Below are positions 41,444-63,867 of a stretch of DNA of 64,000 nucleotides, piece by piece. The position numbers and the translations under genes are program-made. The notes under the pieces are model-generated. The model was given only the letters and a program-made list of their open reading frames with translations. It was not told where the DNA came from and made no database searches. This DNA is from Gymnothorax reevesii (taxonomy: Eukaryota > Chordata > Actinopteri > Anguilliformes > Muraenidae). The stretch is from NCBI GenBank assembly GCA_029721435.1, contig CM056592.1, positions 36,591,611-36,655,610 of the forward strand. The letters run 5' to 3'. How positions within the stretch are numbered: position 1 is the first letter of the stretch; the number at the start of each line of letters is the position of its first letter.

Positions 41444-42083
41444 CTAAAAATATAGTTGACTTTCGATCTTCTTTGGTAACTGTTTCTTTACAAAGTAGTA
41501 TTTCAGATCTAAAGGACTGTAGGCTATGGAATCGCTTACTTCCAGTGACATGCGGGACTCTACAATGGTATCCATAGTTACTGGCGCCTCATTTCTCACA
41601 CCATGCAGTTTCTTATGAAACGTAATGTTACATCTCAAACGTCTCAAAACCTGATATCTTCATCTCAATAGGTTGTGGGCATGAAATTCTCTGGTGATAC
41701 AGGTATTCACATAAGTTATCAGTCTGGTTGTGAGAATACTTGTGATCTCCAATCGATAAAGCTAACGATGATTTGTATTTGATGGGTCCATTTATGGGTC
41801 TGAGGGTTTCATGGCATTAAGCTGTTTGCCAATTTAGAATTTGAAACCACAAAAAAAAAAAAAAAACCCCACTGATCTCGGCTATGGAATTCGATGTCAT
41901 TCCTTCCATTTCATCAATGCAATCAGTTTCTTTGGGGAACTGGAATGTAATTGCTGAAAACCCAGCCACTGAAAGCCCAGATTTTAGGTATACACCTTCG
42001 TCATTACGCAAATTCTGTACTTTGATCTTTAAACTCAAACATGTCAGTGTTGTGCACCAGGTCATCAGCCAAAATACACCCAC
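41444..42083 (-). other. unrecognised minus-strand open segments
   Basis: Two minus-strand frames, 42083-41817 (with KIKVQNLRNDEGVYLKSG and GFSAITFQFPKETDCIDEME) and 41647-41444 (with RNEAPVTMDTIVESRMSLEV and SPLDLKYYFVKKQLPKK), look compositionally like protein and are separated by stops and a T-run. They may be decayed exons or a processed pseudogene. I cannot name a family, and splice sites are not convincing. Confidence 0.3.
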
Positions 42084-42263
42084 AAAAAGAGAATAATGTC
42101 AAGAAGAAATATCAGGCTGTATTGATCAAATAGTTGTTTTGAAACTAGTATTCTTTGAATTTTGGATTTAGAATTACAGTATTATTTACTTTAAAACCCT
42201 GTCGATGAGAGTAAAACAAGGGTGCAATGTTCAGTTACATAACTCTGTTTGCATCTTGGTCAA

Positions 42264-42297
42264 TTCTGGGAAAAATGCCAGTCGAACTCCGGTATAA
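42264..42297 (+). promoter_or_regulatory. promoter of the lipocalin gene
   Basis: TATAA at 42293-42297 (GGTATAAGAAC) lies 62 bases before the chosen ATG at 42359. Just upstream, TTCTGGGAAA (42264-42273) matches the CTGGGAA core of type II acute-phase (STAT3) elements known from orosomucoid and other liver acute-phase genes. With transcription starting about 30 bases after the TATA box, the ATG at 42326 would be at the cap, which favours 42359. The regulatory role is inference. Confidence 0.5.
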
Positions 42298-42358
42298 GAA
42301 CAGTCTGCCCCCTTGGACTGCGGCAATGATCCTCATACACATCCAGCTCTCATTCACC

Positions 42359-42469
42359 ATGTATGTCCTGTATATTACTGCGGTCCTCAGCCTACTCTCT
42401 GTAAGCAATGCAGAGCCCTTACCGTGTGAGGAGATTGTGCAGCCCCTGGTCCTGGAAGATTTCAGTAAG
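42359..42469 (+). CDS. lipocalin copy B exon 1
   Basis: Codes the signal peptide and the mature N-terminus EPLPCEEIVQPLVLEDFSK, with the first conserved Cys. The donor is AAG/GTAAAC, phase 0. Bases 42385-42463 recur identically in the hAT element at 43682-43760. Confidence 0.88.
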
Positions 42470-43540
42470 GTAAACAGTTTTTGACTTTTTCACTATTTGT
42501 GTATTTTCATATTTTTGCTGATATCATGACCAATGGTAACTTTGAAGCTAGGCAATATGAAAAGGTGTATGCTGCATTAAAGGTGGAGCATTAATTCTGT
42601 ATTTACATATCCACTGATGAGCCAATTCATTATGACCACATGCTTAATACGCCGTCGATCTTCCACATGCCACCAAAACAGCTTGATGAAATTGACGTCC
42701 ACATTTATGCCCGGATTCAGGCTTCCCAACAAAACATTTACTCGAATACCACACTCTTAACGCCTTCTTCTCACAACACATCCAGATACCTCCTGTTTCC
42801 CAGGTAAACGGCACACATGTCCCCGCCAGATGTACATGATGTATAAGAAAATGGGACTAATCAGACCAGGCAACTTTCTTCCATCGCACCAAAGTCCGTT
42901 CCGATGCTCACATGCCCGGGTGAAAGGGTTCTTTGACAGATCTGCGGTTACAAAACCCCATTCACAGCAGGCTGTGATGCACTGTGTCATGACACATTCC
43001 TCCCTCTGGTAACACAAAAATTTTTGGTGACTTGTGCCACAGTAGCCCTTCTGTCAGTTTGGACCAGACGGGATAGCCTTGATCGCCCTCGTGAGTCGAT
43101 GGGCGGTGGGCACCCCAGGCCCTGTCGCCGGTTCATGGTTTATCTTTCCTTGGGCCTTGGGCAGCTGGTGCTCACTAGTGATGTTACGTCTGACACTGAG
43201 GCCCCGAGGTCTGTATTGATCAAAGGGGGCGTGTCCAAATGAAGCCCGTTTCGAGTACTGTATTGTTTTTCAGAATATCACGTGACCAAAAACAAACGAG
43301 GCCCTGGTTCTCTGAAGTGACGTGATTTCCTCGTTGCGTGATTCGATTCACTGAAAAAGCCGCGAGATATTCAAGACGTGTTCTGAGTTATCTGGTGTGG
43401 TACATGCAAAAAACTGGAGATAATGGAGCCAACAAAAAGGAGGACATCATCCGTTTGGGAACATTTCGATATGATATCTCCCAAGAGGGCACAACATAAT
43501 ATACATCTGCAAAAATCAATCACGTCGAGAGAGATTGAGA

Positions 43541-43614
<74 letters not shown>

Positions 43615-44551
43615 TGATTGCAGATCAGTGGCGTAGCGTGGAGGCGCTGGGCCCCGATGCGAGAATGGCGCTAGCCCCCCCCCTCAGCCTACTCTCTGTA
43701 AGCAATGCAGAGCCCTTACCGTGTGAGGAGATTGTGCAGCCCCTGGTCCTGGAAGATTTCCGTGGAGGGAAATAAGAATAAGCTGACGCGATCTCGGTTA
43801 ACGTATTTTAACTTAAAAGTGCGAGGCCAGTGAAGAGAGGAAAATGTAACTGTCTCGAGACACTCCTTCAGCGGTCCGCACAAGGTTGCTGATCGGCTGT
43901 ATGCAAGTAAGTTTCTGTTGGTGTCCGGAAAATGCATAAATAGCAATGTTGTTGTATATTTAAAAAAATAAACCTGTTACACTGAACATAATTACACAGT
44001 TAAGGTGCTTGAAAACAGTTACACTTAAAATAATTACACCGTGGTTGTTTGTTATTTTGCTATTTCCAATTCTAAAAGTAGCCTAGTTTTAGTTTATGAC
44101 AATCTACAGTTTATGACCGTTTACTTACATTTTTTCCAAAAAGGTTGAGGTTTGTATAAATTACAATGAGTGAAATAAACTGCAATGGTCTCTGAAAACA
44201 AAATGTGCGCATGTATTGCCTATTTGTTTGGGGGGGGGGGGGGGGGGGTGCAAAAATTCTTTTATGTACCAAAGGGGGGCCCAGCAGAAAAAGTTTGGGA
44301 ACCACTGGGTTAGCTGATCTCTCAAAAAAAAACAATTCACGAGCAAGCGCGTAGCCTACGAAGCTACGATCAGAAAGGAATAAGTGAATGTCAACTAATT
44401 GGACAAACACATTTCCCAGCAGGCCATGTTCATTTGAACATGTTGTGAATAAAACAATCAAATATATGATTAGTAATTGTGATTATAACTGAAAAAGTAT
44501 CATTACTGAAATACAAAAGACATATATCAAAGAAAAGAGGAAAAATGGCCA

Positions 44552-44612
<61 letters not shown>

Positions 44613-47600
44613 GTTGGGTGTTACCATGACTGTGTTGTATGAAACAGTAGAGCAATATATATACTCATCAACTCCGTAATTTATAAAAGGTAATGCGGCG
44701 TTAAACAGGAGACTTGAAATAGCTATGCGAAAAATTGTGTTTTCGTTATGTGTTATGATAAGAGGAAGAATGGCATAGTTAATCACCGTGGGCCCTCGGA
44801 GGTCATCGGGGCCCTGGTTCAGCGCACCGGCTGCACCGGCAATGCCTACGCCGCTGTTGCAGATGTAGCCCACACGTGAACGTGACAGTAGCCTGCTGTA
44901 CATCAAATGACCAGCAGATGTCAGCACTCTCAAATGAGCAATAATAAGGGGACTTCATGATCAGCCTTTTAATGAAGCAATTGCCTGAAAAGATTCGATA
45001 CATTCATGGGCCCTCATCACACCATCACTAGTGCTCACCACTGCTGACAGGAAGCACCCCAGAAGGCTTGTTGCTTCAAAAATGTTCCAACTCAGGACTT
45101 GGTCCTTGTCAAACTCATTCAAATCCCATTTGTCCTGAATCTAACACAATAACTTCAACAAACAACTGTTCACTTACCATCACAGATCTGTTCACAGACC
45201 TTGGCATGCATCAGTTTTGCGAGATAATACACACACATGGTGTTGGTCCATCATGTTGGCAAAAACAGCCCTCTCAAGTTGACTTCCACATGAATGTCCT
45301 GACCCAGGATATCCAAGCAGAAGGTTTCTCAGAATATCCAACACTCTACACCAACTTATCGCTGTCCCATAGTGCATCCCGGTGCCAGCTGTTCTCCAGG
45401 TAAACAGTGCACAAATACCCCGCTGATAGATATGATGTAACATAAGTCAGGACTCAACGGACAAGGGGACCCTTCTCGCTCCAAAGTCCAGTTCCAACGA
45501 CAAAGTGGATCCAGTCAATGTTTCGGCTCATCATTCTTTGTACCCCACAGCTCAGTTAATAATGTTATGCAACAGTGTTTAGGTAAAAATAATTTAGATA
45601 GTCATTAATGTACTATCAATAATTCAAAATTTATGAAGACTGGTTTCCATATTGATGGAAGTTTATTTTGGTGTTTACGAAAAATAAATCATACCGTTTC
45701 ATAGAAGGATCATCGCTATAATGTCAGTGAAGTAAGTTTGTGGAGAATCATACTGAGATCTTTTTTCACAAAATATGGCTCATATCTAACTTTTTTGACA
45801 TTTTCAGGTATTAGGAAAATGGATCCTCATTGAATCCGGCATGGATAACCCTGTTCTTGCCACAATACTTAAATCTGTGAACAGCTCTTGGTCGGAATTT
45901 GTGGCTACTGATGACAAAGACACTGTCCTCTTCCGTGAGAAGAACATGATGTAAATAGCATAAGCTCACATTTTTATTGTGAATATGAATCTCTGTGCCT
46001 GTATATGCCTATGTTAATTTCTGTTCCTGCATTGATTCCCCTCATTCTCTTCAAATTTGTGAAACTGAACAAGTGTAGTGTTTTCGGAGACGAAAGCCCG
46101 AGTTTGTTATTTGGTGAAGCATCCTTTGATCTGGTTATGCACAGATCGGTGGTACAGAAAAGTGAAGCATGAGAATGATGGAAATCAGAGCCTAGTACTT
46201 AGGAATCATAGTCTCAGATTTAGTGCACTAGAGTTAAAATAGCCCCTAAATGAACAGCTTTTGCAGTGCATTGTTATGCATCTGCTATTGAACACTGTTT
46301 CTATCTTATTTCAGAGGTGGAAAATGTGAATATCTATTGGCAAACCTTACCCTGTCTCACAACACCATCTATTTTACCAGTAAGTAATAATACAGCACTT
46401 GACTCCATGCAATCTGTCTGTAATTTCCACAAAGTGTTTGCAGCAGCAATAACCAGTGCACCAATCCACAGCATTTCTTCAATGCCTGCAGAAAAACCTT
46501 TTTTTTGTAATTGCAGAGTAGAAACAGTCAGGCAAATAATTTTGAATAGATTTACCTTCTTTGATGAATTTTCAATTTTAAACAAAGCTGAAGTATATAG
46601 TGTTACCCCCGGTCTGTACTCCAGGAAAACAACAACTTTCACACTTTTAAACAAATAAGATCGGAAAACTACTTGCAAAGCATCTCAATTTATTTGTTGT
46701 TTTACAGTTTTTTACAATCCCGATGACCCGTTTTAACACTTTAAACACTTTTTCAAAACTGTCACACCTAAAACACACAATTCCCAAAATAGTTAATTCC
46801 GTGCTCAGAATCGCACAGTGCAAACTAATTACAGACACATTTCCAAACTACAATAATACTCTAACATAATTCACCAAATCTATCAAACACAAACACATGC
46901 TGTCTTCTAACAGACACATTTAGTCAGTCACAACACAATGTCATAAAAAACACTAACAACTGATGGAATAACAAACTGAATCACTTTACATGCGTCAGCT
47001 CTACGGTTTTACAATCAACAGATTATTGTATGATCATAAATTGATGTTCTTGCTGTAGTTTTTTGAACCTCTCTTCATTTTTCTTTTGTTGGGCCTGAAT
47101 TTTGTTTGTTTTTTGCAAAAACTCAGTACAGAAAGTGAAGGACCTATTTCAGAGCAGCTTTGCAGAATATAAAGTTTATGAAAGAAGAATACAGTAAATG
47201 AAAAGATTTTTGCAGTAAACACTTTATTTGCAAATGAAAATTACTGACAGTAAAGGGGAAAAAATCAGCATTTAGCTGTCAGTCACTATTGTCAAATATA
47301 CAAAAAGAAAAAGGAGCAGAAGACATTACTGTAAAAAAATAAATAAATAAAAAAGCTCATCTGCTCAGGCTTCAGCATTGGGCCACATATTTTCGTCAAC
47401 ATCACATCTGATATCTTCTCTGGCCAGGCCTCTTGGGAAAAATCTTTTCGCAGGCCTTATCCATCCCTGGCAGTGTTCAGCTGTGATGTCCTGGCATGCA
47501 GCACCCATTGCATCCAGGAGGGACATTTGGTCATGTGGATGATGATCCAATACCTTCCACCTCCAGGCTGAAAAACACTCCTCAATAGGGTTGAAGAAAG

Positions 47601-63793: not shown

Positions 63794-63867
63794 CAGTGGC
63801 GTAGCGTGGAGGCGCTGGGCCCCGGTGCGAGAATGGCGCTAGCCCCCCCCAAGGCCTATCCGCGAAG
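63794..63867 (+). mobile_element. hAT terminus, same family as 43626-44856
   Basis: CAGTGGCGTAGCGTGGAGGC and GAATGGCGCTAGCCCCCCCC match the left end of the exon-carrying hAT with one mismatch over about 57 bp, then continue with AAGGCCTATCCGCG, the uncaptured family sequence. Confidence 0.8.

Follow-up and report, generated by a model that had tools for sequence, protein, structure and literature searches.

P-element-induced gap repair has been demonstrated experimentally in Drosophila. Tan et al. (2021, PMC8277862) surveyed 100 animal genomes and identified 370 Pack-TIRs. According to those parts of the survey that deal with their origin, 160 of 281 single-copy Pack-TIRs (56.9%) lie at most 15 kb from the parental copy, most of these less than 5 kb away. 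Most single-copy cases are there attributed to transposition-independent breaks, with a median gap of 4.6% of the element, and the excision-triggered route, for which larger gaps and terminal breakpoints are expected, accounts for a small proportion (PMC8277862). In maize B73, a filler-bearing class makes up 486 of 903 Ds-related elements, and the account of this class mentions few fillers that could be matched to genes (PMC3260210).

The window, i.e., the whole stretch of 64,000 nucleotides analyzed here, corresponds to C20:36591611-36655610 of a 2.17-Gb genome and contains a hAT element with a piece of a host exon inside it. We read this, with a probability of about 0.8, as a single-copy Pack-TIR-like element that was patched where it lies, the nearby exon having served as temporary template. 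Like the Pack-TIRs, as far as the survey describes them, the element flanks a non-transposon segment on both sides and its parent can be identified. Like their single-copy class, it is present once, its parent is 1.2 kb and hence less than 5 kb away, microhomology appears scant and one breakpoint carries short de novo bases (PMC8277862). It differs from the single-copy class in its gap, which amounts to 61% of the nested element, against the median of 4.6% reported there, and it departs from the detection criterion of the survey, since 79 bp stay below a BLAT score of 100 and the parent is a three-way tie. The Tan et al. pipeline, as its description goes, would thus miss this copy, with the score of at least 100 and the unique parent being limits of detection rather than of biology (PMC8277862). 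Like the filler-DNA Ds-like elements of the maize Ac/Ds system, it has hAT ends around a filler, occasionally a gene fragment in maize, and like the Ds family its relatives include internal-deletion derivatives of one family. Unlike what is described for the Ds fillers, there is one copy, and it adjoins an identical exon (PMC3260210). With P-element gap repair or abortive SDSA, which the animal survey mentions (PMC8277862), it shares retained ends, a lost interior and a nearby ectopic filler, although the hAT case, unlike P-element repair, is read from sequence. The event is of a kind already known in animals and a well-ordered example of it, i.e., a clean record of a broken hAT that gained a host-exon piece within a host intron.

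The copy and its source lie as follows.

42359..42469, forward strand: predicted exon 1, coding part, 37 codons in phase 0 with donor GTAAAC at 42470 (from translation and the exon/intron border)
42385..42463, forward strand: donor of the copy, or a segment with the donor's exact sequence (from the match to the 79-bp copy)
43682..43760, forward strand: 79-bp perfect copy of exon 1, from the last base of codon 9 to the end of codon 35, without start codon and splice donor

Predicted exon 1 encodes MYVLYITAVLSLLSVSNAEPLPCEEIVQPLVLEDFSK, and predicted exon 2 begins at 45808. The earlier note had called the gene a lipocalin. Scanned singly, the exons gave no Pfam match; exon 1 joined with exon 2 and the likely exon 3 gave Pfam Lipocalin at E=0.14, below the cut-off, and in the PDB alpha-1-acid glycoprotein at E=0.017. 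We therefore retain the label in a softened form and consider the gene weakly lipocalin-like by sequence. Eight such genes form an array at C20:36.56-36.77 Mb, and across it the 79 bp of exon 1 are 96–100% identical. In alignable sequence around exon 1 (42000-43186, exon included), eight paralogues diverge by about 7–18% from the window gene, and some 3′ blocks diverge beyond this range.

Comparison within the window reproduced what the earlier note had reported, namely the base-for-base identity (79/79 bp) of 43682-43760 with 42385-42463 in the same orientation and their spacing of about 1.3 kb (1,297 bp from start to start). An exact match of 79 bp is far beyond chance. Searched against the genome, the 79 bp were found in 10 places (10/10 candidates scored), i.e., nine gene exons and one transposon copy. 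Eight of the exons lie in the C20 array, the window's included, and one on C3; in all nine the exon border reads AGTAAG followed by GTAAAC, while the entry for locus L010 repeats the window's exon, which this locus contains. The copy perfectly matches three of the nine, the window's exon 1 and those of two more paralogues on the same contig, and differs from the remaining six at 1–3 sites. The same search, with all 10 candidates scored, gave no second exon-bearing transposon. The question of whether other family copies carry the 79 bp is thereby answered in the negative, with the window element as the sole transposon match, and we rejected derivation of the copy from an exon-bearing transposon family.

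The copy sits in a stack of transposable elements.

43168..43175, forward strand: left target-site duplication of MITE-O, GTGCTCAC (from sequence, with the empty site in paralogues)
43176..45030, forward strand: MITE-O, interrupted by hAT-A, with ends TAGTGATG...CATCACTA
43618..43625, forward strand: left target-site duplication of hAT-A, TTGCAGAT (from sequence)
43626..43681, forward strand: 5′ end of hAT-A, still present as far as the C-tract at 43675-43683, with 1–2 bp of C common to the copy
43761..43774, forward strand: 14-bp filler CGTGGAGGGAAATA (from sequence reading)
43775..44307, forward strand: 3′ half of hAT-B, ending at the exact terminus GGGAACCACTG
44308..44856, forward strand: retained 3′ part of hAT-A, starting with GGTTAGCT, the likely right target-site duplication of hAT-B
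44857..44864, forward strand: right target-site duplication of hAT-A, TTGCAGAT (from sequence)
45031..45038, forward strand: right target-site duplication of MITE-O, GTGCTCAC (from sequence)

The outermost element, MITE-O, belongs to a dispersed family (176 first-look candidates, best 40 scored). Paralogue alignments break off at about 43186 and pick up again at about 45030, and the outer site is contiguous in six of the eight paralogues, with L064 and L065 being uninformative. Four MITE-O copies were fetched out of 39 listed besides the window, and all four are without hAT-A and have instead a single unfilled site, TTGCAGAT or TTGCAAAT, of the pattern TTGCA[GA]AT. These empty sites show that MITE-O inserted into intron 1 and hAT-A into MITE-O. 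Since the sites are empty in the paralogues, the patch must be younger than the paralogue split.

The element at 43626-44856 has the ends CAGTGGCGTAG and CAGCGGCGTAG. CAGNG-type terminal inverted repeats are typical of the hAT superfamily, to which we assign hAT-A from its short repeats of this type and its 8-bp target-site duplication. The hAT-type ends and the perfect duplication around them (43618-43625 and 44857-44864) stood as first described; the view of a simple hAT did not, since half of hAT-B lies inside and MITE-O outside. A family search with the 3′ part scored the best 40 of 491 candidates, which makes it a best-match sample, and 30 loci were cut out, the window and 29 other copies. 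In this sample from the best 40 of 491, 26 of the 29 others span about 1.58 kb, with interior and both ends present, 22 of these 26 are flanked by perfect 8-bp duplications, and all 29 run uninterrupted through GGTTAGCT. The terminus at 63794 belongs to another hAT-A copy, which agrees with the window element at 56 of its first 57 bp and beyond these has the usual sequence of the family; as the earlier note had said, it is without the exon segment. Aligned to L025 as reference copy, the window element retains the first 57–58 bp, as far as a C-tract that varies in length, and its 3′ part resumes at GGTTAGCT, position 1069 of L025. In another copy, L024, an internal deletion starts at the same C-tract, which may be a recurrent site of breakage or slippage. 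The interiors of L021 and L024 were considered as further exon patches and rejected: L024 is without family positions 59-286, L021 without the first 569. In paralogue L061, a hAT-A 3′ part (2033-2547 of the reverse complement) precedes exon 1 by about 0.6 kb. Elsewhere, the 8 bp TTTCTAGG on the 3′ flank of L027 (C3:82355061) equal the 5′-flank 8 bp of L031 (C3:82516087), a copy some 160 kb away, and the other ends of the two do not match, as if the two copies had undergone recombination or had moved together.

The third element, hAT-B, swamped the whole-element search, with 39 long matches listed besides the window, and pieces were therefore searched separately. Its 533-bp piece matches 39 other listed copies at 96–98%. 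Intact hAT-B is about 1.27 kb long with ends CAGTGGTTCCCAAA...GGGAACCACTG; among seven copies read, the 8-bp duplications were perfect in six and had one mismatch in the seventh. With ends of the type CAGTG...CACTG and this duplication, we place hAT-B in the hAT superfamily as well.

From the nested arrangement of hAT-A and hAT-B, the precursor is estimated at 2,855 bp, of which 1,752 bp (61%) are gone and replaced by the 79-bp exon copy and the 14-bp filler; this precursor was not encountered in its unpatched form. The first 8 nt of the filler CGTGGAGGGAAATA equal nt 12-19 of hAT-A (shuffle P ~0.009 for the plus strand only, and for a match looked for post hoc). Its last bases form a slipped AATAAG repeat with the following ones, as would be expected from error-prone joining. 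Against all loci fetched by then, the filler had no match of at least 11 nt outside the window element. At the left switch, true microhomology is 1–2 C only, and the right junction has the filler. Guidance of the switching by microsimilarity was rejected, as 10% and 15% of random pairs do as well at the two switch points.

We propose that transposase excised hAT-A (or hAT-B), or that a break arose in the element. Repair on the left side would first have resynthesized 57 bp of hAT-A as far as the C-tract and would there have switched template to exon 1, which lies 1.2 kb upstream and has the same orientation. After 79 nt of exon 1, the new strand would have left this template, and its end would have been joined via the 14-bp filler to a right end repaired as far as the middle of hAT-B. 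Three exon-1 copies match equally well, and from the distance we infer the nearest one as donor. The trigger may have been excision of hAT-A, excision of hAT-B or a break in the C-tract. The earlier note had offered exon capture and patch repair side by side; patch repair is the one we favor, given a single patched form whose exon lies 1.2 kb off. In-place patching is favored further because six of eight paralogues are uninterrupted at the outer site, and because 61% of the nested element as reconstructed is missing with a filler to mark one junction.

Repair in place could also have been set off without transposase, by a replication fork that stalled at a C/G tract (FoSTeS/MMBIR); this differs from the excision scheme in the trigger only. 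The left switch sits in the length-variable C-tract, L024 broke at the same tract, and the animal survey, in its treatment of single-copy cases, favors transposition-independent gap filling (PMC8277862). However, the gap of 61% and the position of the left breakpoint, some 57 nt inside the terminus, are unlike the small internal gaps of that class and seem to fit the excision-type class better, for which repair predicts a large gap; the 14-bp filler suggests that two ends were joined. The right breakpoint is internal to the element, unlike the terminal breakpoints of the excision-type class. On balance, we regard a stalled fork as possible but doubtful.

A further question is whether the 3′ half of hAT-B is an older nested insertion or a second templated patch from the same repair. 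hAT-B would have been an abundant template (2,732 first-look candidates in the whole-element search), and TGGGTTA is common to hAT-A and some hAT-B flanks. In the window, the right end of hAT-B alone remains, but it runs precisely to the hAT-B terminus, with GGTTAGCT directly behind it, 8 bp that fit the target pattern of the seven copies, with the central TA seen in 7/7. A second patch thus appears improbable, and a nested insertion is the more likely origin of the piece. The exact terminus and the fitting target site suggest that hAT-B had entered hAT-A, and the patch would be later than hAT-B, since it removes hAT-B's left half.

Capture of the exon elsewhere, from the window gene or a paralogue, followed by a jump of hAT-A into intron 1 beside the source would agree with the perfect TTGCAGAT duplication, with intact termini and with three identical possible donors. 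Local hopping is moreover frequent among hAT elements, which counts for such a jump. Yet the exon-bearing form was found once in the genome, the exact hAT-B/hAT-A junction likewise gave one match (nine matches with two mismatches continue into DNA other than hAT-A), and the element would have had to land by chance 1.2 kb from an identical exon. Transduplication in the Pack-MULE-like sense implies several dispersed copies with the captured segment, and one was found. We therefore hold capture and jump to be very improbable. An assembly artefact as the source of the duplicated exon is scarcely credible, given base-precise junctions, coherently nested elements and correct target duplications.

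In the earlier note, the zero mismatches had been taken as a sign of a very recent event. Measured against a consensus of seven selected copies, the hAT-B part shows differences at 9 of 533 sites, of which some lie near its G-tract, and the hAT-A 3′ part differs from its family at 8 of 426 sites, islands (see below) and G-tract excluded. At this divergence of 1.7–1.9%, simple arithmetic gives 1.3–1.5 expected changes in 79 bp and a probability of about 0.22–0.26 for none. With a divergence like that of the element itself, a perfect copy would hence be met in some 22–26% of cases, so that the conclusion of recency falls away, and the patch can, on these counts, be as old as the element at this site.

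The patch might also have consequences for splicing.

43688..43906, forward strand: putative pseudo-exon, preceded by an acceptor-like C-tract/TCAG and followed by GTAAGT at 43907 (from sequence and translation only)

The best donor-like site downstream of the copy, GTAAGT at 43907, lies within hAT-B. Splicing of the copy as an extra exon is possible; the putative pseudo-exon would have 219 nt, and its translation in phase 0 meets a stop after 12 codons. If spliced, it would more likely disable the transcript than extend it. Such patches are nevertheless one route to new exons.

Finally, the 3′ end of hAT-A contains two short segments that vary strongly between copies.

44673..44692, forward strand: hypervariable island 1 of hAT-A (from the family alignment)
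44721..44743, forward strand: hypervariable island 2 of hAT-A (from the family alignment)

In 41 hAT-A 3′ ends (the window, the 63794 copy and 39 others), the islands are almost randomized and their neighbors conserved. The islands were seen across copies L020-L048, L067 and L072-L081, a sample of the best-scoring copies for one query rather than a random one. Comparison of 26 full copies (325 pairs) gave a mean divergence of 2.3% outside the islands and of 43% and 41% within them; for the 18 closest pairs it was 1.1% outside vs 32% inside, i.e., about 28-fold. Inside and outside distances correlate weakly (Spearman 0.24 and 0.35). Changes in the islands are rich in transversions, which outnumber transitions there by 294 to 229, while elsewhere in the 3′ end transitions prevail by 193 to 125; the island columns of this count were chosen by their variability. 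The islands do not appear to act as pairing arms (best antiparallel z ~2.0, best direct z ~2.9, fewer than 100 registers, not significant), and in consensus folding they did not pair with each other. Nor do they appear to be copies of flanking target DNA, as there was no excess over shuffled flanks. A literature search for hypervariable MITEs gave nothing relevant among the entries listed, by which absence from print is not shown. We may speculate, with considerable reservation, that an element-linked localized hypermutation, perhaps an undescribed process, makes the islands change about 28 times faster than the remainder of hAT-A and leaves near-unique tags on the copies.

A new tag at every jump is counted against by copies that share their islands. 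Those of L031 and L032 are identical (0/40 differences), and homology of their flanks was not found at the thresholds used; the islands of L045 and L073 appear identical, and those of L080 have one deviating site. The latter three copies lie at C12:78347738, 78356216 and 78364696, spaced 8.5 kb apart, and may be tandem duplicates.
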